This document shows, piece after piece, positions 11,612 to 64,000 of a stretch of 64,000 nt of DNA. Both the position numbers and the translations under genes were made by a program. Positions within the stretch are counted from its first letter, which is position 1. Each line of letters begins with the position of its first letter. This DNA comes from Diplonema papillatum (lineage: Eukaryota > Euglenozoa > Diplonemea > Diplonemida > Diplonemidae): NCBI GenBank assembly GCA_030068145.1, contig JAPJBO010000899.1, positions 28,866 to 92,865 on the forward strand. Direction: 5' to 3'. The notes beneath the pieces are model-generated. The model had not been told where the DNA came from, made no database searches, and saw only the letters and a list, made by a program, of their open reading frames with translations.

Positions 11612-13408
11612 CTTTTTTTCTTCTTTTTCTTCTTCTGCGGACGAAGCGCGGGAGGAGTGTGGGGCGGGAAAAGAGCGGACTAGGGGAGGGGGGCGTGTGT
11701 GTGAAAACGGCGGGTGCTTTCTTGTTTAGGAAAACCTTTTTTCCCGGCGTGTGTGGCGATGTTGATTGGGTGCACCTTTTATTTTTTCCTTTTATTTCTC
11801 CTTTTTCTTCTTCAGGACTCTCAAAAGGTTGTGTTCTGGCACTAGAGAGTCAATCGCAGGGAGAGTTGTGTACACGTGTGTGCGGACGCTGGAGTTCCTT
11901 TTTTTCTTTTCCGCCGGAGACCTGCAGGTGGCGTTTTAGAGTTAAAGTTCGCTTGAAACTCCGGGGGTAGGGTCTCTTCGAGCAAGAAAGGGCTATATGG
12001 TTTTGCTAGATTCGTAAACTGTATATAGAGTGGAAGGGGTGGTTTGCTTGGGAATCTGCGATTCAAAAATACCCCCCATCGTTGGCCAATGGTCTTGAGT
12101 TCAATAAGGGCGACAACAGGGGGTTTAACTAGAGGCTTTTCATGGTATTCTGCAGAGAGAGCCCATCGAGCCAACGCACTCCGACAGCAATACGGGGTAG
12201 TACGAGAAGAACCCCCGTTTCTAGTCCCTGGTACTATACGGTTGTTCGATCGGACAGTGCCGTGATGCTACCACTGGATGGATTATGGCTGAACGCCTCT
12301 AAGCCAGAACCCAGTCTAGAGGAATGCATGGCACATCGGATGTACCGGACGTCCTAAATTTTCGTATGTCTTAACCATGGTTTCAGGATAGACGGTAATT
12401 CTGGCGGCTATAACTACGTCGTCTTTAATGGTGGACTGCGCAAGTTGTGTCAGTCGAAGCTGGTGAAGAGATGGTATTCGATGAATCTTCTGCTGCCCTC
12501 TTCGGCACGTCACGCTCGGGCTGACGACACTTCACCGGTGTGTTTGTAGAGAGGACTCGCGTGAACTTCGGGGGCTATAGAGTCTCTTGACGTTCAGCAA
12601 CAGAAACATCCTTTATCGCAATGTGCTGCATGAATGGCTCGCAAGTTACCATGTATTCGCTTGATTCATGAATGACTACTGAACGAGTTTCCCTTCCTTT
12701 ATGCGTGCTACGTGAACAACGATCCCGCACCAAATTCCTGCCCCATGGGCGACCACTGCACAACGACGCGCAAATGAGGAAAGCGTGGATACGTCGATTT
12801 TAGTTCCGTCATTTTTTTCTTCTTTTCCCGGGTTCGTTACTTCTGATAGGTGAAAAGAGACAGCTTCGCCGAGGAACGAGGAAGATCATCAAAACGCCCT
12901 CCCTCCGCCACCTCCCATTTGAAGAAGAAGCGGGGGAAGGAGGCCGGAGAAGACGAAAGAAAACAGGAGAATGAAACGGCGCAAGTACTGTGAACGGGAA
13001 GGGAAAATTGTATGTGTCGCCACTTACTGTACGAAGATCAACGAGTGTCGTTGAGTTTCTGCTGCTATGACCCCCTTTCTCATTTTCGACGTGTGCATCC
13101 TTCTGGCCTTCGCACACGTTGCTCTTGGACTTGCACCCACGCGACGAAACGAAACAATTCGAAACGAGGCGTGACAAGTAGAAAACTACCGTGTTTTCCT
13201 CTTTCGTGAACTGCAGGGGTTCGTTTCGCACAAGGACGCATCGTAGCGCACGTGGCTTTCTACAAGACCGATCCACAAGGGGTTGAGCAACACTGCCGAA
13301 TACAAGCCCGAGTTGCAGCCACAAGTCCCACAACGCGCCGCATCCCATAGTCGGCTGATGTCTAGACCTGTGGACAAAAGGTCGGTTTTGGGGTTGTTTC
13401 AAACGGAA
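11612..13408. other. No confident gene; one 197-codon open frame of doubtful status
   Basis: This stretch holds a T-rich tract (11610-11640), a copy of the agttcgcttgaaactccggg repeat (11934-11995) and a partial one near 12560. A minus-strand open frame at 12809-13402 has no recognisable domain. It contains a donor-like site (acagtaagtgg near 13018), so part of it could be an exon, but I cannot support that. Confidence 0.4.
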
Positions 13409-14508: not shown

Positions 14509-17500
14509 TCAGTCTTCTTCGTCCTTGGCGTCGACCTCTTCTTCGTCTTCGGGGATGCCTCGGATGTAGAGAACGTTGTTGCATCTGTGCCGGGTTTGAA
14601 GACGCGTTCGATGGGTCTTTTTAGATATAGCAGACTCGCTGCCTGACCCACGAGCAACCCTTTCCACCCCATGCTTATTTCTTTGTAAAGGGGGGGGGGG
14701 AACTTAGTTTAATGTTTAGGCAGGACACTGCCTCTCATGCATGTTTGATGCAAGCATCAAGTCTTCTTCGAAGAGAGTGTAAAATAGAAAAGGGAAAAAG
14801 GAAAAGGGTAAAGGGGTCACGGGGAGTGTAAGACTCCACAGGTAGGGTATGAAACCTTGAGGGACTAGTCCTCTTTATTCTTTTTCACCGCGGTGCTGTG
14901 TGCACCTCGCGTCTCGGGTTTCGCTCGTGAAGGGGTCGAATAATAACAGTTATTTGACACACGTCTCGTTGTCTAAAAACACTACCACCATTCGATCCTG
15001 CTACTGTCAGGTGTTATTATTCGACAAAACGAGTAATAACACAGGTGTTATTATTCGACCCCCCCCCACCCCTTTAGGTGCCCAGGAAGTCTTTATGTGT
15101 ACCCTTTTCTCCTGGCCCGTTGCAGGTAGGCAGTCGGTTGCGAGACTGACAGCTGGGCGGCGCCACCCTCCTCTACGGAGGGCTCGGCTTCGCCCGCTTG
15201 AGAATCCGGGATTTTAGAGTCTCCGGGTGACCTTCGTCGAATGGGTTTAGTCGAATGGGTTCTTTTAGAGCTAATACGTACTGGGTGGGTTTGGGGGGGC
15301 ATGCATGGCTTCTTTCGTGTACACTTTACTCGCTTGCTTTGGCAAGTCAGGTTCGAAACAATTTGTGATCTCACCAAGTTCGGGGAGTGTTCTTGGGCTC
15401 CCCAGGTTTTTTTTAGAGTTTTCACTGCAGTGAAAATTACCCAGTTGTATTTGTGATATGGTTGCTCATCATTTGGGCCGTCCCACGTCACTATTCGTAT
15501 GCCCTTCCCTTAGTACCTTTCCGGAAGCGAAAGTGTGGGGCCGCGACGTGAAGGCTGGACCAAGAGAGACCGACTTGATCACGCCTTGCTTTCGCTCGAT
15601 CACTTTTCGACGAACTGGGGGGGGGCACAATGTAGGCAAAAAAACGAATCCTGGAGCAAAAAAAAGAGCAAAGAAACAAAAAAAAAAAAACACAAACCTC
15701 CAGAGCAAAAAAAACAGCAAAAAAACAAAAAACAAAAAAAAACAGGTAGGGTGCCAACATTGGGGGGGCACGGCGCGGTACACGGAATTCCATTGCTACG
15801 GCCTCCCACCCGATTCCCCAACACCGTGTGGAAAGCAAAAAAAGGAGTTGAGGATGAGAAGTCATACCGGATGAGGACATCGCCTAGCTGTCCAGAGAAG
15901 GTTCCGTCGATGTGCTCTTCACACCTGTGAGGTTGTATAATGTGATTTTCCTTGGCTTCTAACGAACTCGGTCTCTCGTAGTGGGCGTGATGGCTCTGGG
16001 AAATCGAACTGCGTTCTACGAAAGACGTTCGAACGAACGTACGAGCAATGCTGGTTCATCGCCGTCAGGTGCCACCCTCGTAAGATGGATGCAGGATCTC
16101 GCCTGGGAGTAAAACACCGCAGTTGAAGGTGGGCAACTGGGTGTGATTAACCGGGCTTCTAACAAACTCGGTAGCTTGTGGTGGATGTGATTCGTGAAAA
16201 GAACTCCCGACCTTCGAATAGAGGTTACGAGCTTACACCCGGCAATGCCGACCCACGTAAGAGAAGTAGAGGTGGCATCTCGCCTGGGAGTAAAACACCG
16301 CAGTTGAAGGTGGACAACTGGGTGTGATTAACCGGGCTTCTAACAAATGATTAACCGGGCTTCTAACAAACTCGATATCTCATAAATAAAAGATAGGTGC
16401 GATTCGTGACTTGATAATGTCGACCCACGTGAGAAGTAAACATGGCATCTCGCCTGGGAGTAAAACACCGCAGTTGAAGGTGGGCAACTGGGTGTGATTA
16501 ACCGGGCTTCTAACAAATGATTAACCGGGCTTCTAACAAACTCGATATCTCATAAATAAAAGATAGGTGCGATTCGTGACTTGATAATGTCGACCCACGT
16601 GAGAAGTAAACATGGCATCTCGCCTGGGAGTAAAACACCGCAGTTGAAGGTGGGCAACTGGGTGTGATTAACCGGGCTTCTAACAAATGATTAACCGGGC
16701 TTCTAACAAACTCGATATCTCATAAATAAAAGATAGGTGCGATTCGTGACTTGATAATGTCGACCCACGTGAGAAGTAAACATGGCATCTCGCCTGGGAG
16801 TAAAACACCGCAGTTGAAGGTGGGCAACTGGGTGTGATTAACCGGGCTTCTAACAAATGATTAACCGGGCTTCTAACAAACTCGATATCTCATAAATAAA
16901 AGATAGGTGCGATTCGTGACTTGATAATGTCGACCCACGTGAGAAGTAAACATGGCATCTCGCCTGGGAGTAAAACACCGCAGTTGAAGGTGGGCAACTG
17001 GGTGTGATTAACCGGGCTTCTAACAAATGATTAACCGGGCTTCTAACAAACTCGATATCTCATAAATAAAAGATAGGTGCGATTCGTGACTTGATAATGT
17101 CGACCCACGTGAGAAGTAAACATGGCATCTCGCCTGGGAGTAAAACACCGCAGTTGAAGGTGGGCAACTGGGTGTGATTAACCGGGCTTCTAGCAAACTC
17201 GGTATCTCGTGGTAGACGTGATTAACTTCCGCCGTAAGACCTTCGAAAAGAGGGTACCAATGCCGAATCACGTGGGCACAAGTAGATGTGCATCTCGCCT
17301 GGGAGTAAAACACGGCAGTTGGTGTGATTAACCGGGCTTTTAAAGAACTCCGTATCTCGTAATAGTAGCTGTGATTCATGGAGCCAGAACTTCCGATGTA
17401 AGACCTTCAAATGAGATTTCGAGCGTACACCCGGCAATGCCGAAACCCACGTAAGAAGTCGAGGTGGCATCTCGCCTGGGAGTAAAACACCGCAGTTGAA

Positions 17501-19885
17501 GGTGGGCAACTGGGTGTGATTAACCGGGCTTCTAACAAACTCGGTATCTCGTAATAAATGTGAATAGTGAGAACAGAACTTCCACGGTAAGAGTTTCGAA
17601 AAGAGGTTACGCCATGCCGACCCACGGAAGAACAACATGTGGCATCTCGCCTGGGAGTAAAACACCGCAGTTGAAGGTGGGCAACTGGGTGTGATTAACC
17701 GGGCTTTTAAAGAACTCGGTATCTCGTTAATAGTAGCTGTGATGCATGGAACCAGAACTTCCGATGTAAGACCTTCAAGAGATTACGAGCGTACACCCGG
17801 CAATGCCGACCCGTAAGAAGTCGAGGTGGCATCTCGCCTGGAGTAAAACACCGCAGTTGAAGGTGGGCAACTGGGTGTGATTCACCGGGCTTGTAACAAA
17901 CTCGGTATCTCGTCACAGATGTGATTCGTGAAAACAGAACTTCCACGGTAAGAGTTCCGAAAAGAGGTTACGCGATGCCGACCCACGGAAGAAGAACATG
18001 TGGCATCTCGCCTGGGAGTAAAACGCCGCAGTTGAAGTGTGATTAACCGGGCTTTGAAAGAACTCGGTACCTCGTTAATAGTAGCTGTGATTCATGGAAC
18101 CAGAACTTCCGATGTAAGACCTTCAAATGAGATTACGAGCGTAATGCCGACCCACGTAAGAAGTCGAGGTGGCATCTCGCCTGGGAGTAAAACACCGCAG
18201 TTGAAGGTGGGCAACTGGGTGTGATTAACCGGGCTTCTAACAAACTCGGTATCTCGTAATAAATGTGATGCATGAAGATAGAACTTCCGACGTCAGACCT
18301 TCGAATGCCTGCCCAAGTTGCCCCTCGTATTTAGTAGATGAAAAGATGCAGCATCTTGCCTGGGAGTAAAACACCGCAATTGAAGGATGGCAACTGGGTG
18401 TGATTGACCGGGCTTCTAACAGCTGGATTAGGTATGCTGGCTCTGCTTTGTGGAAAACAGAACGTCATTTGAGCAAACTTAGGAACTAGTTCTGGCAATG
18501 CTGGTTCGTGGTAGTGGGTCACCCTCGTAAGTAGATGTGGCATCTTGCCTGGGAGTAAAACACCGCAAGTGAAGGATGGCGACTAGGTGTGAATAACTGG
18601 GCTTCCAACAAATTCAATATCGTCGTAGACGTGAAAACAGAACGTTCTTTGAGCATAGTTGCGAACGTACTCTGGAAATGCTGCTCCAGATCACGGTGTC
18701 ACTCTATCTCGCCTGGGAGTAAAACACCGCAGTTGAAGGTGGGCAACTGGGTGTGATTAACCGGGCTTGTAACCAGCACCATCTCTTGAAGTAGGCGTGC
18801 TGGCTCTGATTCGTGAAAACAGAGCTTCCGACGAGAGGCCTTCGAACAAACTTGCGAGCTGACATCCTTGTCGAAAGTAGAAGCGGCATCTTGCCTGGGA
18901 GTAAAACACCGCAGTTGAAGGTGGGCAACTGAGTGTGATTAACCGGGCTTCGAATCAACCCTTGCGAGCAGGCATTCCTGAGAATGGCCCACGATTCCAA
19001 CAAGACCTCAGTGCCAGCAAAGGTACGGACAGCAAGAATGACAGCCAGTCACTCTTGCTGTCCACACTTTCTGCACCGACACGCGAGCATAGCTTTGGCT
19101 TCCCTTGAAAACCTAAGCTGCCCATAGCGTGCGGATCTATATGGCGCGCCCGAGACAGCTGGTGGACACAGCAGGCGGTTGGTATTGCAGACCTCGGTGC
19201 GCGCAACCGATTAACCAGCAAGAGTGTCCATGTGCCTTCTCAGCTGGTGGACACGGCAGGCGGTTGGTATTGCAAACCTCGGTGCGCGCAACCGATTAAC
19301 CAGCAAGAGTGACGGGCAATGTGCCTTCTCAGGTTGGCATTGCAAACCTCGGTGCGCGCAACCGATTAACCAGCAAGAGTGGCGGGCCATGTGCCTTCTC
19401 AGCTGGTGGACACGGCAGGCGGTTGGTATTGCAAGCCTCGGTGCGCGCAACCGATTTACCAGCAAGAGTGACGGGCCATGTGCCTTCTCAGCTGGCGGAC
19501 ACCGCCACTCGAGGCTCAAAGCACAAGCTTCGTTTGCAGTCCTTGGCTGCCCCTAGCATGTGGAGCTATAGCGTCCGTATACAGCTTGTGAGCACGGCAG
19601 GCATACGTGCACTGGCGCTTCCTCTCCCCTTCCCCTGTGCTCAGCAAAAATCGTGAAACACTCCAAAAAGGCTCCGAAAGGCTCGCAAACGGTGGTCCTT
19701 GCACGACTCCATCTGGTCCCGACTACTTTGTGTGAGTGAGCATACCTCGCAAGCTGCAGGTTCATGTAAGAGTCGACGGAAACGAGCAGCCCTCGGTATT
19801 CGTGTCCCCACTTCAGCTTCACCACGGTGTGCTTGCCGACCAGGTCCTGCAGGTACGGCATCGGGTTCACGGGTTCCGAATCCAT
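14509..19885 (-). CDS. SNRPF: Spliceosomal small nuclear ribonucleoprotein SmF (three exons)
   Basis: SmF is one of seven Sm proteins forming the ring on U1, U2, U4 and U5 snRNAs in the spliceosome. Exon 1 is 19746-19885, exon 2 15868-15924 and exon 3 14509-14584. The joined frame is 273 bases, 90 codons plus TGA, close to the family's usual 80-95 residues. Exon 1 (residues 1-46) carries the Sm1 motif, with [10 protein letters not shown] and [11 protein letters not shown]. Exon 2 supplies [17 protein letters not shown]. Exon 3 starts by completing Arg66 and gives the Sm2 motif [10 protein letters not shown], then an acidic tail [13 protein letters not shown]. Donors are GAG|GTATGCTC and CCG|GTATGACT; acceptors are CACAG|G and CACAG|A. 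Both junctions keep phase (2 to 2). Cys67 after the Sm2 Arg and the acidic tail fit SmF rather than LSm6. The introns are 3821 and 1283 bases, unusually large for 57- and 76-base exons. Intron 1 contains two satellite arrays. Confidence 0.93.
14705..14785. repeat. Triple-hairpin dispersed repeat, copy 3
   Basis: This copy has the hairpins aggcaggacactgcct and ttgatgcaagcatcaa, then cttcttcgaagag. It lies inside SmF intron 2. Other copies are at 2605-2680 and 38995-39070. Confidence 0.7.
14934..15065. mobile_element. Small inverted-repeat element ending gtcgaataataac / gttattattcgac
   Basis: The left end ggtcgaataataacag is mirrored by gttattattcgaccccc at the right. A second copy starts at about 29056 (gtcgaacaacaacagttatt) and shares the interior ttatttgacacacgtct and ctaaaa, but its right end is replaced by the actagtgcac-type minisatellite. 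It lies in SmF intron 2. Confidence 0.7.
16085..18950. repeat. Satellite array of about 170-bp units inside SmF intron 1
   Basis: About 17 units share the core gcatctcgcctgggagtaaa, then cgcagttgaaggtgggcaac and gattaaccgggcttctaac. Five central units are essentially identical with an exact 170-base step (catggcatctcgcctgggag at 16441, 16611, 16781, 16951, 17121). Flanking units are diverged, with spacings of about 165-190 and substitutions such as gcatcttgcc. This pattern suggests recent homogenisation at the centre. The array lies wholly within the 3.8-kb intron 1 of SmF (15925-19745). Confidence 0.95.
19140..19510. repeat. Second tandem array in SmF intron 1 (70-89 bp units)
   Basis: The motif gtgcgcgcaaccgatt followed by accagcaagagtg occurs four times (from 19197, 19282, 19352 and 19441), each preceded by variants of cggcaggcggttggtattgc. 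Spacings are 85, 70 and 89 bases. The first pieces overlap tgacagccagtcactcttgc upstream near 19040. Confidence 0.85.
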
Positions 19886-21480
19886 TGTTGCGCCGCCAAG
19901 TCCCTCCCCCTCTTGGTTCTTCTCGTTCCTGGTTCTTTGATTGCTGGTGGGAAACTAGTTTCTCTTGTGAATTCGGGGCGAAAAGGGAAAGATCTTTGTT
20001 AATTCAAGGCTTAAAGCTCGCCTGATCGAACACGCGAGTCCGGTCACAGCACTTTCGCCGGACATTCGCGCGTGTTTGCGTTCATGTGGTACCTTGGCAG
20101 AGTGGATCGATACGTTGCATCGGTCAAGCCGAGACGCAATTGCCTGGCATTGTGCGGTGCACGTCGCAGTTGGGTGGTGTTGACGCGGGGTCCTTGTTGA
20201 GCCGCCGGCGTGCTGGATGAGAGAACCACGCTACGCTTGCTACCACCGTGACTCCGGGAGTGTGTGTTTTTAGAGTTAAAGTTCGCTTGAAAAAAAAAAT
20301 CCGGGGGCTTAGGGTCTCCGTGTGACCGTTCATGAATGGGTTCTCTTAGAGCAAGAAAGGGCTATATGGTTACGGGTTGTATATTTAGTGCACGCTTTCG
20401 ATATGGGTTATGGCTAGCCATGTCTGGGGCTGTTTTTGCGCGGGTTCACCTCATAACACGGCCGCCTTTTGCCGGTAGCTAGTGACAAGTTGCGCTGGAT
20501 CCTACACTCCCCCGCGCGCTGCCAGATACGTGAGACGCTTCTCGCAGCTCGTCTAACTGCCCTCCTCTTACTCTTCCTTTGCTCTTGCTGTGCCACAGGG
20601 CACTGCTTGACTACGCATTATGTCTTGTTGTCGCAATGTAACAGGACAGGGCACCAACGGTGCATCGGCTGTGTACAAAAGGTGCGTATAAGTCGATCTT
20701 TGAGTGCGTGAGCGCCTCCGAAGAAAGGTCAAACACACTAGTCCAGGCTACTTAGCCAGGGTATCTGGGCCGCGCCCCCCTCCTTCTCTTGGTCGCCTGG
20801 GTCTTGCGTCTTGCTGGTCCGTCCGGGCTGGTCGCTTCGCGCCTCCCCTTCGTCTTGCAAGCTGCAAGGTGTGCGGGGTGTCCTTTGTACGAAAGGTGCG
20901 ACAAAAGAGCCGGGTAAGTTGGAAGCTAGGTGCAGGAACCGTTTCAGCCAGTCGGGTCTAAACGGACTCGTGGCGTCGTTTGTCTGCAAAGAAAGGACGC
21001 AGCGGCCTCTCTACACGCGCGCAGCACTGCGGTGGATCACGCTGTGGAAGCTTGGTTGCGAGAAGCCGGTTCGAGAACAAGAGGGAGAACCCAAGCTGGG
21101 CTGCGAAGCAACCACAAGTGATAGCTAGGGTATACGGGGGATCCGGGTGCGGCCCCTGCGACCTGATTATCGGGCGGCCCACCCCCCGGAATGTTTCCAC
21201 CGAGTCGCCTGGCTGGACTGCGTTCTTTCTTGGCTGGTGTGTTTTCGTCACCCACGTGCCGCCGGGTTTTCTTGGAACACCCGCGGGGATGTCGGCGACG
21301 CAATACTATCAACAGAGTCCGATGCGATGGCATCAGAGGGATCACGCCCATAGGTCTCTTCTTGGTTGCTGGCCATTAGGGGCTACCGGTTGATGATCAC
21401 CTTACCGGCACCTAACCGAGGGTCCCCGAACACGTCGGTTAACACGCCATCGGCAGTCCATCACCTTTATTCACCTTCCA
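19886..21480. other. Upstream region of SmF; no other gene recognised
   Basis: This is the stretch between the SmF start codon and the degenerate repeats downstream of the next minus-strand gene. It must contain the SmF promoter and 5' leader, but no TATA-like or other core element is convincing. A copy of the agttcgcttgaa repeat lies at 20266-20345. Open frames here are short and lack domains. Confidence 0.4.
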
Positions 21481-22805: not shown

Positions 22806-24719
22806 TCAGAGCTTGCTCGAAGCATACAGTTCAGTAACACGCGAGACAAACTCGGTAGCCTTTGACCGCACCACTTCCGGTGACATCCGCGGCTTGTACA
22901 GGGAGGAACCGACGCCGAACCCGTGGGCCCCGGCAGCCTTCCACTCCTTCAAGTTGTCGACGGTCACCCCGCCCACGGCCAAAACGGGAAACCGCGGCGG
23001 GAGCACCGCCGCCATGGCCTTCAGGCCCTTCGGGCCCGCGACCTCGGCCGGGAACAGCTTGAGGGCGTCCGCGCCGTAGGAGATGGCGCGGAACGCTTCG
23101 GTCGGCGTCGCGACGCCGGGGACGGTCACCAGGCCGAGCTGCCGCGAGAGGGTTATGACGCCGCGGTTCACGTCGGGTGACACGATAAGCCGGCCGCCGC
23201 TCCGGTGCACGGACAGCACGTCCGCCGGGGTGAGCACGGTGCCCGCGCCGACCAGCACGGCGGGGCGGCGGTGCCGGAAGCGCTCGGCCAGCAGCCGGAT
23301 CGACTCGAACGGCTGCGGCGAGTTCAACGGAACCTCGACCGCCGTCACCCCGGCCGCAACCAGAGCGTCGGCGACGGCGACCACCTCCTCGGGGAGGACG
23401 CCGCGAAGGATCGCCACGACCCGCGGCACTGCCGCCGCCCCCGGCGCCGGGGCCCCCTCGGCGGGCGCTTGCTCTGTACCGTCGGGACGACGCGTTCGCG
23501 CCGCGCCGCTCGGCGCGGCAGGCGAGCTTTCAGCCGTGGTGCCACCCACGCCCGCCTTCGACCGGGAGCCTTCGGAGGGGCCGAAAACATGAGAAACGGG
23601 CGCCGCTGCTCGGCTCGGGTCGTGCACCCTCGGCACGCCGTCCCAACCACCTCCCCGGTGGTCGACGGGACCGGGCGGTGCAGCGGCCGGGGTTTCTAGC
23701 CGGGGACCGCCGAAGAAGATGGTGCGGACCCCGCGAACGACCGCATCCCGCGCGGTGACCCGGCAGACAGGCACGCCCCAACTGTGCCGGACGGCCTCCG
23801 CGTACAACGAAGCAAGCCCGTCGGCCCCGATCAGGTGCACACTTTTCGGCAGCCGCCGCCCGCCGGGAGGACCGCACGCGCCCGCCTGCTGCAAGAAGCC
23901 GCGGGCGGACTGCAGCTCGTCCCCGATGAGCAACCCGGAAAGAAACGCCGGCGCGTGCTCTCGAGGCAGCTCACCGGACAACGTTTTGGTGCGCACGGTG
24001 AACAAGTCGTGCAGCAACCCCCTGTCGCCAGGGAAACCCCGCCCGGCGGAGGAAGACAGCCCGTGGTGGAACCAGCGCAGGCCGTCCGGGCTCGAAAGCT
24101 CGGCCGGCTGCCCGCCGACGGACGCAGCGAGGATCGTGCCCCGCGCGAGGGCCCGGAAGGCGTCGCCGGTCAAAAACGTGCGGAACGCCGCGATTTCGCC
24201 GCCGGCGACGACAGCCCACTTGCTGTGGGTCCCCGGGCAGACGTGCACCCCGTCGGCACCGGTCGCGAGGACCTGCGTCTCCTCACCGCGCATGACGTCC
24301 GGCGACGACCCCCCCCCGTCAGCGTGGCTGACACCCGGGACGATGGTGACGGAAACCCTCCGATTCTGCGGCGAGTCTCCGCCGCTGGAAAAAGTGGACG
24401 AGAAGTCCACTTTTTCGAGGAAGAAGTGCGGGGCCGCCCCCCGGAGGGCGGCCGCCGACGCGGGCGAAGGGACGTACGGCGCTTCCTTCCACCCGGCCCG
24501 GCTCCCGACCATCCCCACCAGGAACACGCGGGACGGCTGCCAGTGGGCAATCCGCTCGCACAGCCTCTGTTCGAACAGCCCGTCGGCCACCGACAGCACC
24601 CCACCCGTCGGGTCCTCGACGGTGCCGGTCACTACCCCATTTTCGACCCTGTGCGCGCGGAACGACGTCGTTCCCCAGTCAACCACCACGTAATCGAGCG
24701 CGCTCGTATCGCCCCCCAT
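22806..24719 (-). CDS. dgoK-dgoA: Fused 2-keto-3-deoxygalactonate kinase / 6-phosphate aldolase with C-terminal SKL
   Basis: One uninterrupted 637-residue frame (ATG 24719, TGA 22806) holds two consecutive enzymes of the De Ley-Doudoroff galactonate route. Residues 8-337 match DgoK: DWGTTSFRAH near 15-24 (phosphate loop), MVGSRAGWKEAPY, MRGEETQ near 143-149, PGTHSKW near 162-168, LPREHAPAFLSGLLIG. This half phosphorylates 2-keto-3-deoxygalactonate. Residues 340-430 are a Pro/Ala/Gly-rich linker. Residues 433-627 match DgoA/KDPG-type class I aldolase: VEVPLNSPQ with Glu462, VGAGTVLTP, PGVATPTEAF, ALKLFPAE with the Schiff-base Lys554, and AVGGVT. This half cleaves the product to pyruvate and glyceraldehyde 3-phosphate. 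In bacteria the two are usually separate genes. The last residues are ASSKL, a canonical type 1 peroxisomal targeting signal. GC content is high, and no introns are seen. An upstream GTG in frame is ignored. Import into peroxisomes is inference from the tripeptide. Confidence 0.93.
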   Translation of the reverse strand: MGGDTSALDYVVVDWGTTSFRAHRVENGVVTGTVEDPTGGVLSVADGLFEQRLCERIAHWQPSRVFLVGMVGSRAGWKEAPYVPSPASAAALRGAAPHFFLEKVDFSSTFSSGGDSPQNRRVSVTIVPGVSHADGGGSSPDVMRGEETQVLATGADGVHVCPGTHSKWAVVAGGEIAAFRTFLTGDAFRALARGTILAASVGGQPAELSSPDGLRWFHHGLSSSAGRGFPGDRGLLHDLFTVRTKTLSGELPREHAPAFLSGLLIGDELQSARGFLQQAGACGPPGGRRLPKSVHLIGADGLASLYAEAVRHSWGVPVCRVTARDAVVRGVRTIFFGGPRLETPAAAPPGPVDHRGGGWDGVPRVHDPSRAAAPVSHVFGPSEGSRSKAGVGGTTAESSPAAPSGAARTRRPDGTEQAPAEGAPAPGAAAVPRVVAILRGVLPEEVVAVADALVAAGVTAVEVPLNSPQPFESIRLLAERFRHRRPAVLVGAGTVLTPADVLSVHRSGGRLIVSPDVNRGVITLSRQLGLVTVPGVATPTEAFRAISYGADALKLFPAEVAGPKGLKAMAAVLPPRFPVLAVGGVTVDNLKEWKAAGAHGFGVGSSLYKPRMSPEVVRSKATEFVSRVTELYASSKL

Positions 24720-25736
24720 CACACGCACTCTCCCACACCCGCCCCCGGTGAAGAAGGCCGCACCCCCTCTCCCGTGACCTTTCGCGCGTTTTTCGTGATT
24801 CAGCCCACTTCAAACCATGGTCAATCTCGCTCCGCGCTAGCTAATGACCAGAGCAGCCGCAAAACCCCAGGCAAAAAGAAATGCATAGGTTTTGTAGACT
24901 GTGTTTCTTGTGCTGGGGACCGGCAGCGAGGCGGTCGGATTGTTTGAAGTCTCCGTTTGACTTGTGAGGAAGTTCGCTTAAGATTCCGGGAATTTAGAGT
25001 CTCCGGGTGACGTTCGTCGATTTGTGTTTCCGACAATCCCGTATGGGCGTACAGGCCTTGTGTAAAAACAAGCTCAGGCAAGGCAATCACGCACAGTGAT
25101 GTTTACACGCGCTCGGTCAGCTGAACTATTGGAGCAGGGGGCGTGAGCTCAAACTGGTTGCGAGAACCGAACGCAGGTCCGTCGAGGAGAAGGCGAAAAG
25201 CTATGGAACGCGGGGGGAAACACTGGCTCGCCAGGCCAACAAACTGATTGATGCGTCGCGCGAAAAAAAGACCGGGGCTAGAAAAAGTATGCGTTTTGAG
25301 GGTTGGAAGGGGATCAGAAACGAGAGGGGAAGATGCCTGCGTTCCCGTGGGGGCGTGTGTTGCGGACTCATTTTAACGTGGCGCCCCCTCAGCGAGAGTG
25401 TGTCCACGTGGGGGCGTGTGTGTGTGTGTGTGCGTTGGCAAACCCACGGTGTTTTGTTGCTTTAATGTACAAAAATGTTGCAAGCTTTTCAATGGGTACT
25501 CGCGTGTGCGTCTGTGTTGGAGCGGAGTACGGTCCAAGCGGTCAGCATATCTCACGTCACAGCTGAAGCTCCTGCAGGCTGCTCGTGGTGACCACGCGCT
25601 GTTCGGAACCGCAGCCTCATCAACGTATGGAGCAGGTATCAACCACAACGTGCAGTGTGTGTGTACACACCAAATGAGGGTGTGAGGACAAGCGCGCGGA
25701 GAACTACGTGTTTCTTCCCTTGACAACCAAACAGCA
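24720..25736. other. Upstream region of the DgoK-DgoA gene; no other gene seen
   Basis: A copy of the agttcgcttaagattccggg repeat lies at 24968-25020. A gt-dinucleotide tract (25415-25435) is present. Open frames are short and featureless. Confidence 0.4.
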
Positions 25737-25996: not shown

Positions 25997-28492
25997 TTAC
26001 CGTGGGGGAGGCGGTGGGGGCATGTTGCGGGGCACCGCGACGGCCTTCTGGAACGGCCGCTGCGGGGAGGGCGAGCCGAGGTTCGGGCTCGAGAAGATCG
26101 GGCCGCCGGGCGGCGGCGCGGCGGACGGCGGCGGCGGCGGCCCGCGCGGCAGCGGCGGGTGCGACGGCGGCGGCGGCGCGCCCGCCGCGTCCCGCGGGAA
26201 CGCCGGCGGCCGCGGCGGCGGCGGCACCCCGGCCTGGTTGCTGTGGTGGTGCGAGTCGTAGCCGTAGTTGCCCCGGCCGCCGTTCCCACCCTCAAACCCG
26301 CCGCGCTGGTAGCCCGTGCTCGGGCGGTGCCCTTGGTAGTTGGAACGGTTGTTGCTGCTGTTGTTGTTGTTGTTGTTCTGGTGGTGGTAGCTGTTGTTGC
26401 TGCTGTTGTTGTTGTTGTTGTGGTAGTGGCCACCCCGGCCTTCTTCCCTCTCGCGCTTGGCCCGCTTCCACTCCGGCTCGTCGGACGGTATAGGCAGCGG
26501 AAGCCCCCGGGCCCTCGCTTCAATCTCGATCAGCACGTCTCTGACGTCCCTCGCGCGGTCCTTCGGCTGGCTCATGAAGTGATCGCGGAGGTCCTTCGGG
26601 ATCTTCCGCTTGTTGTCGGGGTCCTCCGGGTCGTAACGCCTGTGCGAAAAGAAGCACCGCTCCTTCAACGGGCAGAACCCGAGGTTCTGCAAGGTCTTGC
26701 AGTAGGGAAGCTCGAACGTGTGGAGGAACAGGCAGTCGTCCCCGTTGTTGCACCGCCCCCGCTGCGCGAAGTACTTGCAGGGGATCCGGCGCATCCGCCG
26801 CAGCTCGTGCGGCGCGAGCTCCGCCGCCCGCTCCTTCAGAGTCGGGCCGGACGAGGCGGACTGCAGGTTCCACCTGCTCGCCTGCTGCTCTATCTGCTCC
26901 TCCGTGATGAGAGGGATCTTGTCGGCCTCCAACGGGAGGTACAGGTCGATGGTTGGGTACTCGACGACGTAACGCACCATCTTCAGTGCGTCCGCTAGGG
27001 TCGCCGTGTGAGGAATGAGGTGGTAAGCTTCGTCGTTTCCCAAACGGCCGGCGCGGATGAATATCTTGTACCCGCTGCCGTCGCCTGTCTCCTTGCCCGC
27101 CTTGAGGAAGGCGCGGACGGCTTGGCGCACGTCAGGCGACCTCGACTGCTTCCGGAGGGCGTACACGTCGTCGGACCACTTGCTCTGCGACTCTTTGTGC
27201 TTGACGAGCATTTCTTGGTCCCTGGGATCGGACGGGCCCTTGACTCCCACTTCAGCGTCGTCCCCGTGCCACGACGCATCGGCGGCGGGTTTGCCGTCTG
27301 CGTCCAGGGCTTCGTCGTCGGAGAAGCCGTCCCGCGAGTACTCGCTGCCCTCCCCCTCGTCCTCACCGCGGGAGCTGCCGTCGCCTTCCCGGTCGTCTCC
27401 TTCGACGGACGGTTCCTTCCCCGCCAACGTGTCGCCGAAGGTGAACCGAAAACGCCGCCCCTCGTCGTGATCCTCGCCCGCTGCGCCGCCGTACGACGGC
27501 GCCTTTCCTTTCGCGCCGGCCTTCGCACTTTTGTCGTCGGCCGGCTCGGCCATGAGTTCGGTAAGGAGCTCTTCGTGCGTCGTCTCCTTGTTCTGTCCTT
27601 CCGCCGACGGCTCGGCTCCGGTTGTTCCGTCCTCTTCTCTCGGCCGCTTGACGCCTGTCATTGGGCCCGTCGATGATGACGGCTGCTTTTTCCCCGGCTC
27701 CGCGCCGCCGTTTTCGCCTTGTTTCGAGGCCGGCTCGTCCTCGTAGTCGACGCGCTCCCAGTCGTCGCACAGGGACGCGTACTGCTCCTGCGTCTTGAGC
27801 GTGTTCTTCTGGTGGGAGATGGCCTTGATGGCCGGACCCACCAGCGCCCCCGCGTCGATGACGGGCGCCTCGCCGTCGTCGTCCAACGGGTCCCTCGCTA
27901 GGGCCTCCTGCGCGGCGGAGACGATGCTCTCGTACCCTTCGGGGACCAAGTGCTCGAAGTTGCACGCGTCGCCGTGCTTGCACGCGCCGGACCGCCAGTA
28001 GAAGTCGCACGCCTTCCTCCCGCTCGGCGTCTTTTTCGGGGGGTCCACGGGCGGGGCCTCCCACAACGCCGACTTCCCGAATACCCGTCTTTTCTTCGCG
28101 ACAGGCACGTCAGGCAGCTCTGCCGTCTTGCAGACTGCCGGTCCGGAGACGTTGACCGCCCGGTCCCCGCGGCCGGCTTCGGGGTCCTTTTCGAGGTCGA
28201 ACTTAACCTTTTCGCCGACGATGAGGCTCGCCATGCCCGCGATCTGCAGCTCGCGCCGGTGCACGAAGACGTCGCTCGCGTGGCCGTCGAGCGCGAGGAA
28301 CCCATAGCCCTTCCGGTCGTCCCACCGCTTGACGGTCCCTTCGAGCACGCCTTCGACCTCGTTCGGCACGAAGGACTGACCCTCGTCTTCGAGCATCTGC
28401 TCCCGACGCTTGCGCCGGTGCTCCCAGTGGATGTTCCACACCGCGTGCTTCTGCAGCTTCTTCTCCCGCAGGAGCGACACGTTGTAGATCAC
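25997..28492 (-). CDS. Cold-shock domain plus three CCCH zinc fingers, RNA-binding protein
   Basis: A single open frame of 831 codons ends with TAA at 25997. Residues 47-118 form a cold-shock (S1-like) RNA/DNA-binding domain, with VKRWDDRKGYGFL (RNP1-like) and DVFVHRREL (RNP2-like). CCCH fingers follow at residues 162-181, 572-591 and 598-617, all with C-x8-C-x5-C-x3-H spacing; the last two are adjacent. Residues 250-445 are acidic and low-complexity. The C-terminus is Asn/His-rich, then Gly/Arg-rich, then poly-Pro, so likely disordered. Binding single-stranded RNA in post-transcriptional control is the inferred role. The start is uncertain: position 28492 is a GTG, the first in-frame ATG is at 28396 (residue 33), and a stop lies about 19 codons upstream of 28492. 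An ATG|GTAACA at 28672-28674 could be a tiny first coding exon joining at GAG|GTG (28492) in frame. No orthologue is named. Confidence 0.82.
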   Translation of the reverse strand: MIYNVSLLREKKLQKHAVWNIHWEHRRKRREQMLEDEGQSFVPNEVEGVLEGTVKRWDDRKGYGFLALDGHASDVFVHRRELQIAGMASLIVGEKVKFDLEKDPEAGRGDRAVNVSGPAVCKTAELPDVPVAKKRRVFGKSALWEAPPVDPPKKTPSGRKACDFYWRSGACKHGDACNFEHLVPEGYESIVSAAQEALARDPLDDDGEAPVIDAGALVGPAIKAISHQKNTLKTQEQYASLCDDWERVDYEDEPASKQGENGGAEPGKKQPSSSTGPMTGVKRPREEDGTTGAEPSAEGQNKETTHEELLTELMAEPADDKSAKAGAKGKAPSYGGAAGEDHDEGRRFRFTFGDTLAGKEPSVEGDDREGDGSSRGEDEGEGSEYSRDGFSDDEALDADGKPAADASWHGDDAEVGVKGPSDPRDQEMLVKHKESQSKWSDDVYALRKQSRSPDVRQAVRAFLKAGKETGDGSGYKIFIRAGRLGNDEAYHLIPHTATLADALKMVRYVVEYPTIDLYLPLEADKIPLITEEQIEQQASRWNLQSASSGPTLKERAAELAPHELRRMRRIPCKYFAQRGRCNNGDDCLFLHTFELPYCKTLQNLGFCPLKERCFFSHRRYDPEDPDNKRKIPKDLRDHFMSQPKDRARDVRDVLIEIEARARGLPLPIPSDEPEWKRAKREREEGRGGHYHNNNNNSSNNSYHHQNNNNNNSSNNRSNYQGHRPSTGYQRGGFEGGNGGRGNYGYDSHHHSNQAGVPPPPRPPAFPRDAAGAPPPPSHPPLPRGPPPPPSAAPPPGGPIFSSPNLGSPSPQRPFQKAVAVPRNMPPPPPPR

Positions 28493-37866: not shown

Positions 37867-38740
37867 GTGTCAAGCAGTGTCCCTCTTCCAAAGCAAGCGG
37901 ATCGCAGTCAAAGAGTTTTTAGAGAGTGTCAAGCAGCGTACCTCTTCCAAAGCAGTCACGCCGAAGCGCGCTCACGGTCAATGGGTATCCCAAAGCAGTC
38001 ACGCCGAAGCGCGCTCACAGTCAATGGGTATGTAGAGAGTGCCAAGCAGTGTCCCTCTTCCAAAGCAGTCACGCCGAAGCGCGCTCACGGTCAATGGGTA
38101 TCCCAAAGCAGTCACGCCGAAGCGCGCTCACAGTCAATGGGTATGTAGAGAATGCCAAGCAGTGTCCCTCTTCCAAAGCAGTCACGCCGAAGCGCGCTCA
38201 CGGTCAATGGGTATCCCAAAGCAGTCACGCCGAAGCGCGCTCACAGTCAATGGGTATGTAGAGAATGCCAAGCAGTGTCCCTCTCCCAAAGCAGTCACGC
38301 CGAAGCGCGCTCACGGTCAATGGGTATCCCAAAGCAGTCACGCCGAAGCGCGCTCACAGTCAATGGGTATGTAGAGAATGCCAAGCAGTGTCCCTCTCCC
38401 AAAGCAGTCACGCCGAAGCGCGCTCACAGTCAATGGGTATGTAGAGAGTGCCAAGCAGTGTCCCTCTTCCAAAGCAGTCACGCCGAAGCGCGCTCACGGT
38501 CAATGGGTATCCCAAAGCAGTCACGCCGAAGCGCGCTCACAGTCAATGGGTATGTAGAGAATGCCAAGCAGTGTCCCTCTCCCAAAGCAGTCACGCCGAA
38601 GCGCGCTCACAGTCAATGGTATGTAGAGAGTGCCAAGCAGTGTCCCTCTTCCAAAGCAGTCACGCCGAAGCGCGCTCACGGTCAATGGGTATCCCAAAGC
38701 AGTCACGCCGAAGCGCGCTCACAGTCAATGGGTATTCAGT
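37867..38740. repeat. 113-bp tandem array built from a 43-bp subunit
   Basis: The unit runs from gtgccaagcagtgtccctct through two subunits ccaaagcagtcacgccgaag / cgcgctcacggtcaatgggt. Units start at 37926, 38039, 38152, 38265 and onward, with some shortened units. Because 113 is not a multiple of three, the frame rotates, and a 254-codon plus-strand open frame results without evidence of a gene. Confidence 0.95.
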
Positions 38741-39070: not shown

Positions 39071-39433
39071 GTTCTCGACCTGCTTCGCTTCTCTTTCCGC
39101 TTTTCCCCCCTTTCGATGCTGACAACTTCTTCTTCCCCCCTCCTCAGGTGACACCACCCGCGTGGGTGTGAGGGCTGCCGGGGCTGGGACTGGATCTACT
39201 GAAACAACAGGGGACACCTTCTTCTGTTTTCCCGGTAGATCGATTCCCAGCCCCGGAGACCCTCGGCCCCGCAGGGCTCCTGGGGCTCTCCGGCCAGCAC
39301 CGGTCAGCCCCCGTACTGACACCACTGAGGTGCCTTTGTATCCCCTGGAACACCGTAACCTTCTGCGGGGAGGGGAGGGAATCTTTGCAGGGGAACGACA
39401 CGCAACCCTGAGGTTGCGTTCAAATGGGCATAC

Positions 39434-40420
39434 CGTTCGTTGACGAGCCGGGAGATCTCTTTGGTTTTCCCGTCGCCCATGTGCAGGACGAAGTCGACCC
39501 GCCACAGGATGGTGTCGTTCTTCGCTATGTACCGCGTGAGGTTTCTGATGCGTCTCTGCATCCCCTTGCTTTGTAGCGTGAGGTGCAGGCCACGCTTCTT
39601 CGCAGCCTCTCGCAGGTAGTGTAGCGGTGTCGGCAGGTTGTCCAGAGTGAAAGGCTGGTGACTCGGGAGCTTCCTGTGTGTTCGGTGGTTTACTCGTAAG
39701 CCGAGCGCGACCCGGGCCAACACAGTTGGCTGCACGCGACTTTTGATCCTTGAGCGAGCCCAACAACAAGGCAGCCCTTCAAGTCCTTGGCTCATCAAAT
39801 ACGAGCTATTGCCAACGCCACGTGGACATGCTCAGCAGGATCGTCAATGGCACCCACTCAGATCTTTGCATCCGGGTTGCGGTTGTTCACGCATTCCCTT
39901 TCGGCAATCCTGCACGTCCGAGCAAGCTCGTCAGTGGCAGCTTTGAGGCGAGCAAGTACACCTTGCCTTAGGACCGACTGACCCATGTCCAATTGCTGTT
40001 GACACGGAAACCTTCTCCACTAGTCGAAACATTCCAGCCAAGCCAATAGGAACAGCAAGCAAACCTGTGGAACCCGGCGAGCACGCCCTGCATCTTCTCG
40101 AGAAAGAAGTAGTCTTCGAAGAACACGGTCTCGTTGTAGCTCTCGATCGGCACGGCCTCTGGCTTTTTCTTCCCGTCGCATGAGTGTGCCTCCTTGTGCT
40201 TCTTCACGCACTCCACGGAGCAGCTTTCGCGGCGGCAAGAGGGGCATCTGTACTTCGCAGGAGCGCCGCAGGAGTCGCATATCCGGGTTTTTTCTCGCTT
40301 CGCGGCCTTCGACACGAGGGTGCCTTTGGCATGGTCCTCTCTCAGGATCTCCCGTTCGCACAAGTCGCCGAGGAGATTCTCTCGCAGGGCCGCCGTTCCC
40401 TCCTGGAGGGCATCGGACAT
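39434..40420 (-). CDS. BCD1: Box C/D snoRNA protein 1 (HIT zinc finger), 3' exons missing
   Basis: BCD1 (human ZNHIT6) helps assemble box C/D snoRNPs in the nucleus. Exon A (40065-40420, ATG at 40420) encodes residues 1-118 with a HIT finger at 48-81: CDSCGAPAKYRCPSC, then CSVEC, KKHKEAHSC. The family's following motif appears as ETVFFEDYFFLEKM. Exon A ends CACAG|GTTTGC (phase 2). Exon B (39434 to 39748, or possibly 39739) is in matching phase and carries the second conserved block: LREAAKKRGLHLTLQSKG, then MQRRIRNLTRYIAKND and TILWRVDFVL. It ends GAACG|GTATGCC (phase 2), so at least one more exon must encode the C-terminal segment. I could not locate it below 39434. The intron is about 320 bases. 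The start fits the family's short N-terminus. Confidence 0.85.
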
Positions 40421-41942
40421 CGGTCTCTCTGGTATATTTCCCTTTTTGCTGTCTTTACCTGTTCTCCAGTCTAGTCTCGTGGAGTTCCCACCACATATTC
40501 CAACTTAAAAGGCTGGCATACTTTGAGGAGCACAACCGTGTTGTTTCTTCAGTATAAGTTCGTCCGGAACCTCCCGCTTTTGCTACCTCATCCTTTCCTC
40601 TCTCCCTCATCATTTCAAGCTTCGCCAGCTTCGGCTGACACCATTTGCGCACTTATCTGCTGTACAGTCGGCACGCATCAGCACAAGCGGTTGTCGGCCT
40701 TGCTGGTCGGGCGGGTCAGCTGGCCGACACCATTTTCCAACGAGCCTTCGACTTAATGCCTGACTCCAATTCCTTGGCGTCTGCAGAAAGGTCCAGTAGA
40801 AACCACCATCTGCTGAACAATCTTCGTGCGGGGTTCGCCACTCTTCGGAAAGTATTGGCCTTCTAAGATCCGCGGGATACCACACGCCTATAACAGCCTG
40901 TTGTCGCATATTCTGGCTGCCTGCAAGAAAACAGAAAGGAAAGCCTTTTTGCTTTTCCTGAAGCGTCTCCAGCGACGGTTGAAGACCGGTACTTTCGAGG
41001 GGAGTGGAAGGAACTGAGAGAACACGGATGCGGAAGCGGTCCATACAAGCAAGACAGAGACGCATACTCCCGTAGGACCAAGGGGCTGATGAAAATACGC
41101 TTGAACCCAACAGGGTCTCGGATGCACTGTGAAGGCCCGGAAGGAGATGCAAGGGGGGAGGTTTGAGATCATATATATGGCTGGCCGATCCATGCAGGTA
41201 CAAAGGTTAGCGAATGGGCCAGGTTGTTGTTGATGCGGATAGCTTGTTGAGATACAAACGAGTGTTTGACGGACAAGCGGACAGCAGTGCTGTCAACGCT
41301 TTCCGTTTTTTGTAGCGTTTTGTTGTTTTAGACTGTATTTTGCTTGAGCTGCTTCCTTCATGAATAAAGAAATCTGCGAAGCATCGCGAACTGACGCGTC
41401 GTGGAAGGCGTCAGTCCGTCCATTCGGTGACTTGCTGTTCACTATATTGCACAACAGGCGTGTTGACGGCACCGAAGGGCACTGGTCGCCACGCACAGCC
41501 GGAATCGTATGTTGCGGAAACCTCCAGGCTAGCGGAGAGTCAGCGATGTCGACGCGGGAAGAGGCGGCCTGCTCGAAGTACACCGGTACTCCACGAGTCG
41601 CAGCCAAGTGGTACGAAGAACACCCCTCGTCCTACCGCGGTCGAGAAAGAACAGCCATAGCGCGCTGATACAAGACACTTCAACCCGCATAGCCAAAAGC
41701 TTCCTGTCGGTTGCAGGTTGGGCGTTCAGTCCAACGGTTCGGTGGACCCGTGACATTTCGGTCACACCTCGGGAGTACACACTGGTTTCGCATACCGGTT
41801 CCTCCTCCGGTAGACTGGAAGATAAGGTTCGTCCCTTCGCGGTTCGGTAGATGCCGAAAAGGTGAGATTCGCGCTGGATTCGGACACGCCAAGGGCCCAC
41901 AGAATTTTTCCAGAAGTCTTTTTGCGCAATGGAGAAGGTAGG
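40421..41942. other. No gene recognised between BCD1 and the 41.9-43.2 kb gene
   Basis: Several open frames overlap on both strands, the longest at 40610-41203 on the minus strand. None has a domain or credible splice partner, and they overlap one another. The stretch should contain the BCD1 promoter and the 3' end of the upstream gene. Confidence 0.4.
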
Positions 41943-51701: not shown

Positions 51702-54700
51702 TTACTTCGCGGTATTCATGGCTTCTCTCGTATTCGCAACCAGGTTGACCGCGCGAAGGAGGGGATCTGGCAGATAGTCGGTCAACCAGGATGGATTGAA
51801 AAGCGGGTCCGACAGCACGAGTCGTTTAAGAAACAGAACCTGCATATGGATGTGAAGTACTAAATTATATCTGATTCGGAAAAGCTTGCGCGGTGCATTA
51901 GTAAACCAGTAAAATACCCCTTTTACTTGCAAACTTACTGGTAAAAGCTTTTACTGAAGGGGGCCAACTCACTATGAAAATCGACTCATGATGCTGCATC
52001 ACTTTGATAATAAGTCGACTCTTTTTTTAGGTACGTAACGTTTTAACGTTCTGAACGTTTGCGGTAGAGCCACTGTGCAGCTATGTTCATGTGTGCGGCG
52101 GGTATATGCGATTGCTGCGTGGTTGTTCTGCCTCCCTCTCACCTGGCTTTTACACCCGCGCAACCGCACTGTGGCCTGCCGGACCGGGGGGGCGCCACCA
52201 GACTCACAAATAAAATATTGAAAACCCCCAGAAGCACCCGTCAGAAAAAATAATTAATTCCTTCACGAAATAGCTCTTCACAAAATACAGTTTCACAACA
52301 TATTACTTGATTAATTACGGACTGGGGTGTAGTCTGGGGTTGCTTACAAGTTCACACCACCTATCATCAAAAGGCGCGTTTCTTCGTGTTCCCCTCCTGA
52401 ACTTTCGTGCAGTGTGCCAATTCAGTGGTGCTCCCATTGGTACAAGTCATTAACCTAAACGCGTGTAATTGAGACACCCCGCCCTCAGCCCCAAAACTGT
52501 CTCAATTACAAGCGTTTTCTGCTGTCTCAATTACACGGGGGAGGGTAGGTAATAAGTATAGTCCACCCCCCTTTTAATGTATGCCCGGTGGGATTTTTGT
52601 AGATTCGGTCGAGTGTGTGTCACCATCGCCCCATATTTTTTGGACGCATCTGCACGTAGCACGATTGCGCTCTTAGACGGCTCTGGTTTGAATCAGCAAA
52701 ACGCAGTTTCCGAGCATACCTGCGTCGCGAAAGGCCTTTCCTCGCGGGTCGACGGCTTGTGAGTGAGGCGCATAGCGATGGAGATGGTTGCCGCCGGTCG
52801 GGCGAACTCGTGAAACACGGAGGAGAGTCGACGCTCATCAAAGTTGTCGTCTTCGTCCAAGGCGGCTCGTTTCATTAACCATTGCACTGCCACTACGATG
52901 GTGTTCAGCCCTGTTTTCCAGCCGTCTCTCAAGGCATCCCAGCAGCCACTTCTCTGCCAAATCGCATGACCAAACGCCAGGCCCAGTATGAACGGTACAG
53001 AGCCCAGTCCCGCTGTGGTTTTGTTGTTCCAAACCGATGATGCTACTTCATCCAGAGCATACTCTTCTCCGGGAACTCCATGGTTGCTTTGAAGGAACCG
53101 CACGGCAGAAGTTTGGTCTTCAGAGCATAAGGGAATGTCAGCCTGACACAGTTCCTTCGCTGCTCCAACAGTCCCGTCATGCACGAGTCGGCGAGTGATC
53201 AGATGTGCCCCAAGCTGAGCCAGGTGTTCGAGTAAAAGCGAATCTGCGATCTCTCTGCGAATCTCGGGAGTTGCCAGAGACTCCATTGCTGACTTTGCAT
53301 GGAAGAATGGTTGAGCGGGTGCAGGCGTCAAGTGGAGCAATGAGACCAAAGCCTTTTGGACGTTGCTCATGATCGAGCGTGTCTGCGCAACTAAAGCGTG
53401 GTCGATTGCATGCATGCCGTGAGGTCCCGTGACGGCTGCTAACGAGAGCCAGTGTCGTGGTGCGAAAAAGAAGTCCGCTGGGAAAGGGGCTTGTTTGGAA
53501 GAAGCTTCCGGAAGCTGGGAGACCAGACAGCCGCGAGAGAGCATGAACGCCAGTTTATTTTTCCCGAGATGAGTCGCCAGCAGGCAAGCGAACACCTGCG
53601 GCGCTGAGGTTGAAGGTGGATCGGGTGGGTCGGTGCTTTCCACTACCGCCGCTGTGAGATCTTGGTGCTGCATCGGCTTAGGCGAGCCGGAAGCTGCATG
53701 AAAACCGATGTCTTCTTTCTCAGATGCGCATGGCGTGCTGTCCGGTGCTCGACACGATGATGATTCTTTGAGCGTGAGCTCATCTTCCGTGGACTCGCCG
53801 GTGCTGCAGGCGCCACAGACCACTGGATTCAGTGCTACCTCGTGGTGCATAGCAGCCTTTCCGGACCCTGGGTTCAAGGCATGTTTGCGTTCACTACAAA
53901 AACTGTTAGAGTTCCCATTCTCGGGGACGGCTTGACAGTGACCGGCATTTTGGTATGTAGATCCGGCTGTCTCGTTGTGGTCAGAGGGCGAAAGCACGCT
54001 CATATTTTCTCCGCGTGCCTGCTGTTTTTCCAGGGAAGCTGCCTCGAGCGTTCCGAGGACGGTTGACACTTTTAGAATTTCGTGCTGCGAGCTTTTGATG
54101 GCAAGATATGTGCACATAGTACTCCACTCAGCATGAGCCGTAGAAAGGGCTTCAAAGAGAGCGAACGGAAGACTTACTTTGTGTCGCCGGACAGTTTCTA
54201 GCAGTGTGTCAACAGAAGTCGATGATATGGCGCTTGCAATGCGTTCTGCAATGTTGAAAACTTCTGTTAGTACAACGATTTCTCGACCCGCCAACTGCAC
54301 GTCACCGATGGCAAAGCACCAACGAGCTAGCAGTCGTTGACACCCTTCATATCCGCACCGCAAGGACTCCACGCCGGGTGGTTCGGAAAGACCTTCAATG
54401 TGCTGTTTGTCCTTTGCCTTTGGCATGAGTCTTCCGCCAGTCTCTCCAGGGAGATAAACGGCAGCGTACGACTTGCCAGCCGCCATCGCGCTGACCTGGT
54501 GGTGAAGCGTTGGCAGCCCGAGAGGAGAATCTCGGTATGACTGCACATGAAGCACCACAGAGGCAGTGTACTTTGTAACCAACCTTTGCGCCATATCAAC
54601 TAAGAGAGCATTGTGCTGGGAACGGCCCGACGGGGAGGCCCAAGGATGAACTGCATTGCAGAAAGAATGGACCACGGAGATGAGATGGATGCCAGTATCC

Positions 54701-56379: not shown

Positions 56380-56791
56380 GTTGATATGATGGTTGTGTAC
56401 CTGATTCAAGGTTGCAATTAGTTTTCGTGATTTAGTGAAGTAACTTTTCATTCTCTGAGACAAGGTTTGTCGAGTGTGGTGGAACCTTCTTGTTAGCATC
56501 AAATGAACAACAGGCGCCCAAGCATAGTTTTGCGTCTTGTTTTTGGTTAGAATACTGTCAGAAAACTAGGGTGGATCCGTTTTTAGAGTGCAAGTTCACT
56601 TTTTTATGGTAACAACCGCGGTTGTCATTATCAAAAAGTGACGGTTGGCAGCATACTGTGGAAGTTACCATACAGGTGATAGCACATACGCACAAACAAA
56701 TTCTCACGGTTTCGCGGTTTAGGTAAGTTTTCACCGCGCCGCTTCCTATCCGCTCTTTGCAGAGCCCGTCTGGTCTCATGATATCGCGGTT
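56380..56791. other. Upstream region of NAP1
   Basis: This contains an open but unconserved extension of the NAP1 frame (to 56502), a short hairpin (gttaccat, tgacggttgg area) and a ttttagagtgcaagttcac repeat fragment at 56581. It must hold the NAP1 leader and promoter if the ATG at 56379 is right. Confidence 0.35.
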
Positions 56792-61800: not shown

Positions 61801-61853
61801 GTACGTGCGCTCGGCTAAGGCCGGCGCGTGGCGAGACTGGAGGCAGCAGTTAA
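61801..61853. repeat. Duplicate of the CCCH gene 3' flank (inverted relative to 10551-10612)
   Basis: gtacgtgcgctcggctaagg and gcgagactggaggcagcagt match the minus strand at 10612-10551. This is the boundary between the truncated MITE and the minisatellite. Confidence 0.85.
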
Positions 61854-63774: not shown

Positions 63775-63784
63775 TTATCGGTAC

Positions 63785-63996: not shown

Positions 63997-64000
63997 GTAT

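Follow-up and report, generated by a model that had tools for sequence, protein, structure and literature searches.

A kinase-aldolase fusion of the De Ley-Doudoroff route with a C-terminal SKL on a eukaryotic contig, probably addressed to peroxisomes

Introduction

How do two consecutive enzymes of the De Ley-Doudoroff route come to be encoded in one reading frame on a eukaryotic contig, and where in the cell would such a protein act? The window analysed here, the whole stretch of 64,000 nucleotides, contains a frame that an earlier note had read as a fused "galactonate kinase" and aldolase of 637 residues, closing on a type 1 peroxisomal signal. Below we examine the two halves and the segment that joins them, their bacterial relatives, the C-terminus and the surrounding contig, and then weigh what the protein may do.

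Results

The fusion gene (22806..24719) lies on the minus strand, which the earlier note had not specified. It is a single open frame of 637 uninterrupted codons, from the ATG at 24719 to the TGA stop at 22808-22806, and the nearest in-frame stop 5' of the ATG is at 24810-24812. Its N-terminal domain is DgoK, a 2-keto-3-deoxygalactonate kinase (residues 14-333), and its C-terminal domain a 2-keto-3-deoxy-6-phosphogalactonate (KDPGal) aldolase (residues 433-629); some 100 residues link the two, and the protein terminates in ELYASSKL. The open frame, Pfam and NCBIfam together bear out the claim that two consecutive enzymes share one frame, and all the motifs named previously were located (DWGTTS at residues 14-19, PGTHSKW at 162-168, Glu462 and Lys554). 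The name "galactonate kinase" has to be corrected, as the kinase substrate is 2-keto-3-deoxygalactonate and not galactonate. Taken at the level of sequence, the window protein is supported as a true fusion in which the active-site columns of both halves are conserved.

We confirmed at least 505 relatives in a genome scan and used the best 80, picked by likeness to the query, for comparison. From these 80 loci 23 bacterial rows were taken; the halves were aligned separately and invariant columns were counted on the bacterial rows alone. The kinase domain (residues 14-333; 23721..24680, minus strand) matches PF05035 (DGOK) with a whole-protein E-value of 2.7e-67 and a score of 227.1 bits against a cut-off of 25, covering positions 1-280 of the 281 in the profile. 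Its DWG, PDVMRGEE and PGTH-K motifs are invariant across 24 aligned rows. It retains 33 of the 35 columns that are invariant in the bacterial rows, the exceptions being Gly to Ala at 152 and Glu to Asp at 186, at an identity to these rows of at most 42%. In the predicted model of residues 1-400 the kinase domain is confident, and its best matches among solved structures are the KDGal kinases 3r1x (top) and 3t69. The N-terminal half is thus confirmed, as far as profile, alignment and predicted fold go, as a 2-keto-3-deoxygalactonate kinase.

The aldolase domain (residues 433-629; 22833..23423, minus strand) is matched by the Pfam KDPG/KHG aldolase family at residues 433-609 (E 2.3e-30) and by the NCBIfam model for KDPGal aldolase, NF006600, whose cut-off of 207 bits it exceeds with 251.9; the seven other NCBIfam models listed all score under their own cut-offs. 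All 29 columns that are invariant in the 23 bacterial rows are retained, with identities of at most 58%. Residues 380-637 are modelled with confidence as a barrel, the last helix of which stops at residue 633, and the top fold match is 2v82, a KDPGal aldolase with substrate (target-length TM 0.94, rmsd 1.0). Aligned to the E. coli KDPGal aldolase 2v81, Lys554 (codon 23058..23060) is the counterpart of Lys126, which we take to be the catalytic Schiff-base lysine. Glu462 (codon 23334..23336) corresponds to Glu37, Ile437 to Ile12 and Val582 (codon 22974..22976) to Val154. According to an excerpt of PMC4915726, E37/E45 is the proton-shuttle glutamate of KDPGal/KDPG aldolases, and I12/V20 and V154/T161 are the sites that fix KDPGal versus KDPG stereoselectivity. 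As judged by alignment, the aldolase is KDPGal-type at both stereoselectivity sites (Ile437 and Val582) and not of the KDPG type (V20/T161); the presence of both the Ile12 and the Val154 equivalents therefore places it with the KDPGal aldolases.

The two domains are joined by an Ala/Gly/Pro-rich linker (residues 334-431; 23427..23720, minus strand) that contains no in-frame ATG. Its residues 342-400 have pLDDT values below 50 in the model of residues 1-400, as do residues 389-408 and 419-428 in the model of residues 380-637, and the linker is accordingly predicted to be mostly disordered. A disordered linker neither supports nor excludes channelling of substrate between the domains, which is possible. 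Methionine occurs in the protein only at positions 1, 70, 143, 569 and 612; no in-frame ATG is found between codons 143 and 569, nor any stop between the halves, and the aldolase therefore lacks a separate in-frame start ATG.

The statement that bacteria usually encode DgoK and DgoA separately was seen to hold in all of the best 80 of at least 505 relatives. At each of these 80 loci the kinase gene is followed by the aldolase gene, adjacent, on the same strand and in separate frames, with an overlap of 4 bases in 37 of the 80; a fused kinase-aldolase was found in none of them. The plasmid collection gave 510 matching records, and among the 30 listed 20 carry two separately annotated genes, nine are without a listed feature and one is without annotation; none of these 30 has an annotated fusion. 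Among viral contigs there were 17 pattern matches, none of which encodes a relative. Among the papers listed for the subject in one open-access library, neither the fusion nor a peroxisomal version of the enzyme is reported in a title or abstract opening.

The kinase half of the window protein has a median identity of 35.2% to the bacterial loci and the aldolase half one of 51.5% (78 of the 80 loci, leaving out L014 and L053, which have short kinase frames). Where two bacterial loci share 48-52% identity in the aldolase, the median for their kinases is 35.6%, which places the window pair on the bacterial line. The divergence of the two halves thus appears to have kept pace, which is what joint inheritance would give, although this agreement is not proof of it. 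Domain trees had been proposed as a test of bacterial origin, and as far as they were listed, those built on the best 80 of at least 505 relatives gave no supported donor shared by both halves. The window kinase belongs to a supported group (97/92) whose 36 rows include alpha- and betaproteobacteria and a SAR324 bacterium, and the window aldolase falls in no supported set. The window branches are long in both trees (1.39 and 0.91). We infer that a eukaryote took up a bacterial operon pair, which was then fused and provided with a tag for import.

The neighbours of the bacterial pair were also inspected. Four annotated plasmid regions were compared: in three the pair adjoins an SDR dehydrogenase, an IlvD/Edd dehydratase, an SMP-30 lactonase or an alpha-galactosidase; in the fourth none of these lies beside it. 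A homologue of SDR, IlvD/Edd or SMP-30 is present in the fetched flanks of 48 of the best 80 of at least 505 loci, and all three together in six of these 80. The SDR matches are weak evidence because SDRs form a large family.

The SKL codons (22809..22817, minus strand) lie past the last predicted helix of the aldolase, a few residues beyond its end at 633, and the C-terminal sequence agrees with the earlier description of the ASSKL end as a canonical type 1 peroxisomal signal. Of all stop-to-stop stretches of 50 aa or more in the six frames of the window, 790 in number, the fusion alone ends in SKL and five, the fusion included, end in [SAC][KRH][LM]. From the protein composition of the window, the chance per protein is 0.0003 for SKL and 0.003 for the strict PTS1. 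The strict PTS1 [SAC][KRH][LM] was found at the aldolase C-terminus of none of the best 80 of at least 505 bacterial relatives; a much broader PTS1 pattern, drawn from an excerpt of PMC12697944, is matched by five of these 80. Import of the fusion protein into peroxisomes is judged likely from its C-terminal sequence, which suggests that a bacterial sugar route may have been relocated to a peroxisome-like compartment.

The contig itself is eukaryotic, as judged from the genes and the rRNA fragment recognised on it. A homologue of Nckap1 (WAVE complex) lies at 52693-56502 on the minus strand (E 4.5e-43, profile positions 3-498 of 1119); its frame is single and uninterrupted over 1269 codons, and the family match spans residues 44-535. 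Nearer to the fusion, an uninterrupted 831-aa frame at 25997-28492 (minus) encodes a protein with a cold-shock domain (CSD) and CCCH zinc fingers by Pfam; residues 450-522 of this protein give a weak BCD1-domain match below cut-off (E 6.8e-05). Pfam further identified an LSM exon at 19556-19954, a zf-HIT exon within 39968-40504 and, after it, a BCD1 exon within 39421-39720, all on the minus strand. Together the zf-HIT and BCD1 exons (39421-40504, minus) appear to belong to one gene for a box C/D snoRNA assembly protein; what looks like an intron separates them, with a putative donor that we place near 40065 by reading of the sequence. A fragment of eukaryotic 28S rRNA of 152 bases is present at 12176-12327 on the plus strand (Rfam RF02543, 114.8 bits). 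The Rfam scan detected no other rRNA at gathering threshold and no spliced leader, and the tRNA scan of the window found none. Between positions 10675 and 11679 on the minus strand, P0002 is a coding-like frame of 334 codons with a Cys/His-rich stretch and without a Pfam match.

P0002 shares the minus strand with the fusion and with four other family-matched genes. Beyond the fusion the Pfam scan covered 40 ORFs or exons, 24 on the minus and 16 on the plus strand, and gave five family matches on the minus strand and none on the plus strand. Tandem arrays occupy 16244-18421, 37905-38735, 61852-62932 and 63563-64000, with units such as one of 16 bases present about 67 times and one of 170 bases present about 5.6 times. 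Unidirectional gene arrays, repeats, few GT-AG introns and a spliced leader would be expected of a diplonemid. The window, whose genes are sparse and on one strand, with few introns and many repeats, resembles the diplonemid genome described in an excerpt of PMC10161547, though none of these traits is specific; a glycosome-bearing diplonemid as host is a plausible conjecture. Third-position GC is 0.85 in the fusion, 0.88 in the neighbouring CCCH gene and 0.57 in Nckap1, and the fusion gene is more GC-rich than the flanks measured (total GC about 0.53-0.57). Amelioration is thus not the sole reading, as the fusion differs from Nckap1 in third-position GC and exceeds its flanks in GC.

Discussion

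We consider it probable that the locus encodes a eukaryotic bifunctional catabolic enzyme derived from an acquired dgoK-dgoA pair, which was fused and whose SKL end most likely sends the product to peroxisomes. The N-terminal half would convert ATP and 2-keto-3-deoxy-D-galactonate (KDGal) to KDPGal, and the C-terminal half, a class I aldolase acting through Lys554, would cleave KDPGal to pyruvate and glyceraldehyde 3-phosphate. The ancestor would have been an adjacent bacterial dgoK-dgoA pair in the same order, of a kind that often overlaps by 4 bases, that was acquired by a eukaryote, joined through a long flexible linker and brought to a host-like codon usage. Such a linker may let each domain keep its own oligomer. 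The C-terminal extension SSKL would direct the protein to peroxisomes, or to glycosomes if the host is a relative of diplonemids or kinetoplastids. We infer the activity, import, transfer history and substrate source of the enzyme alike.

Should the host be glycosome-bearing, the triose phosphate would be formed in the compartment that was found to contain PFK and FBP (excerpt of PMC12697944). In that case the route could account for the use of galactose without galactokinase, an enzyme reported as not found in diplonemids in an excerpt of PMC9512073. A Pfam scan of 40 further ORFs of the window met no pathway partner, be it galactose dehydrogenase or galactonate dehydratase. A fuller version, in which a diplonemid-like, glycosome-bearing protist sends the fused dgoK-dgoA product to glycosomes and turns KDGal from galactose or algal galactans into glyceraldehyde 3-phosphate for gluconeogenesis, in place of galactokinase, is put forward tentatively and seems to us somewhat doubtful.

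Several other explanations deserve consideration. The uninterrupted frame and the GC above that of the flanks are what bacterial contamination or an assembly chimera could produce; we rejected this as very improbable given the eukaryotic genes on both sides of the fusion, its SKL end, the limited identity of either half to the 23 aligned bacterial rows, a third-position GC resembling that of the adjacent CCCH gene and the lack of a fused state in the best 80 of at least 505 bacterial loci. It is scarcely credible, too, that trans-splicing or internal initiation yields two separate proteins from the locus: codons 144 to 568 hold no in-frame ATG and the halves no intervening stop, even if hosts using trans-splicing exist and the linker has in-frame GTG codons at 362, 365, 391 and 431. 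More weight is due to a cytosolic location of the same bifunctional enzyme, with an SKL that is fortuitous or weakly used, which we nevertheless regard as unlikely. The phosphogluconolactonase of Paradiplonema papillatum bears a PTS1 and appeared cytoplasmic (excerpt of PMC12697944), so that a PTS1 is no guarantee of import, and at the rates estimated above a large proteome should contain some such ends by accident. On the other side, SKL is the most canonical form of PTS1 and follows closely on the final predicted helix, and the strict signal is missing from every one of the best 80 of at least 505 bacterial aldolases, five of which fit the broader pattern.

The substrate may also have another source than the one assumed in galactose oxidation. 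In Zobellia, as described in an excerpt of PMC5698469, 3,6-anhydro-D-galactose is converted to KDGal by DauA and DauB and then handled by the DauC kinase and the DauD aldolase; the sugar, from carrageenan, thus reaches the same intermediate in bacteria, and the substrate of the fusion need not derive from galactose. That the enzyme serves red-algal galactan or some other source of KDGal, and not D-galactose oxidation, is on balance improbable: the SDR, IlvD/Edd, SMP-30 or alpha-galactosidase genes beside the pair in three of four plasmid regions fit galactose oxidation, as do, more weakly given the size of the SDR family, the flank homologues in 48 of the best 80 of at least 505 loci. Bacterial gene context, however, need not reveal the use of the enzyme in a eukaryote.

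If import of the fused enzyme holds true, the locus would plainly exemplify a pair of bacterial operon genes that became a single gene of a eukaryote, with its product redirected to an organelle, and the eukaryote would thereby gain a De Ley-Doudoroff branch. With one imported protein, kinase and aldolase would be kept in step and a single targeting signal would suffice. The locus also opens the testable question of how protists that lack galactokinase might make use of algal walls rich in galactose.

Related Systems

The fusion shares its domains, gene order, conserved residues and folds with bacterial DgoK and DgoA of the De Ley-Doudoroff route (3r1x, 3t69, 2v81, 2v82). Whereas the bacterial proteins come from separate genes, in the window a single polypeptide, with some 100 linker residues between the domains and SKL at its end, is encoded on a eukaryotic contig. 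DauC and DauD of the Zobellia carrageenan route carry out the same two chemical steps on KDGal, yet they are separate bacterial enzymes that we liken to the fusion by chemistry and not by sequence (excerpt of PMC5698469). By name, the NCBIfam family NF041633 (KHG/KDPG aldolase/sugar kinase fusion) also joins an aldolase of the same superfamily to a sugar kinase. However, the aldolase half of the window protein matches only positions 10-219 of the 580 in that model, with 71.6 bits against a cut-off of 700, and the aldolase is N-terminal in NF041633 but C-terminal in the window fusion. The glycosomal OMPDC/OPRT of kinetoplastids, in an excerpt of PMC9512073, resembles the window protein in fusing two consecutive enzymes and bearing a PTS1, although it belongs to another pathway.
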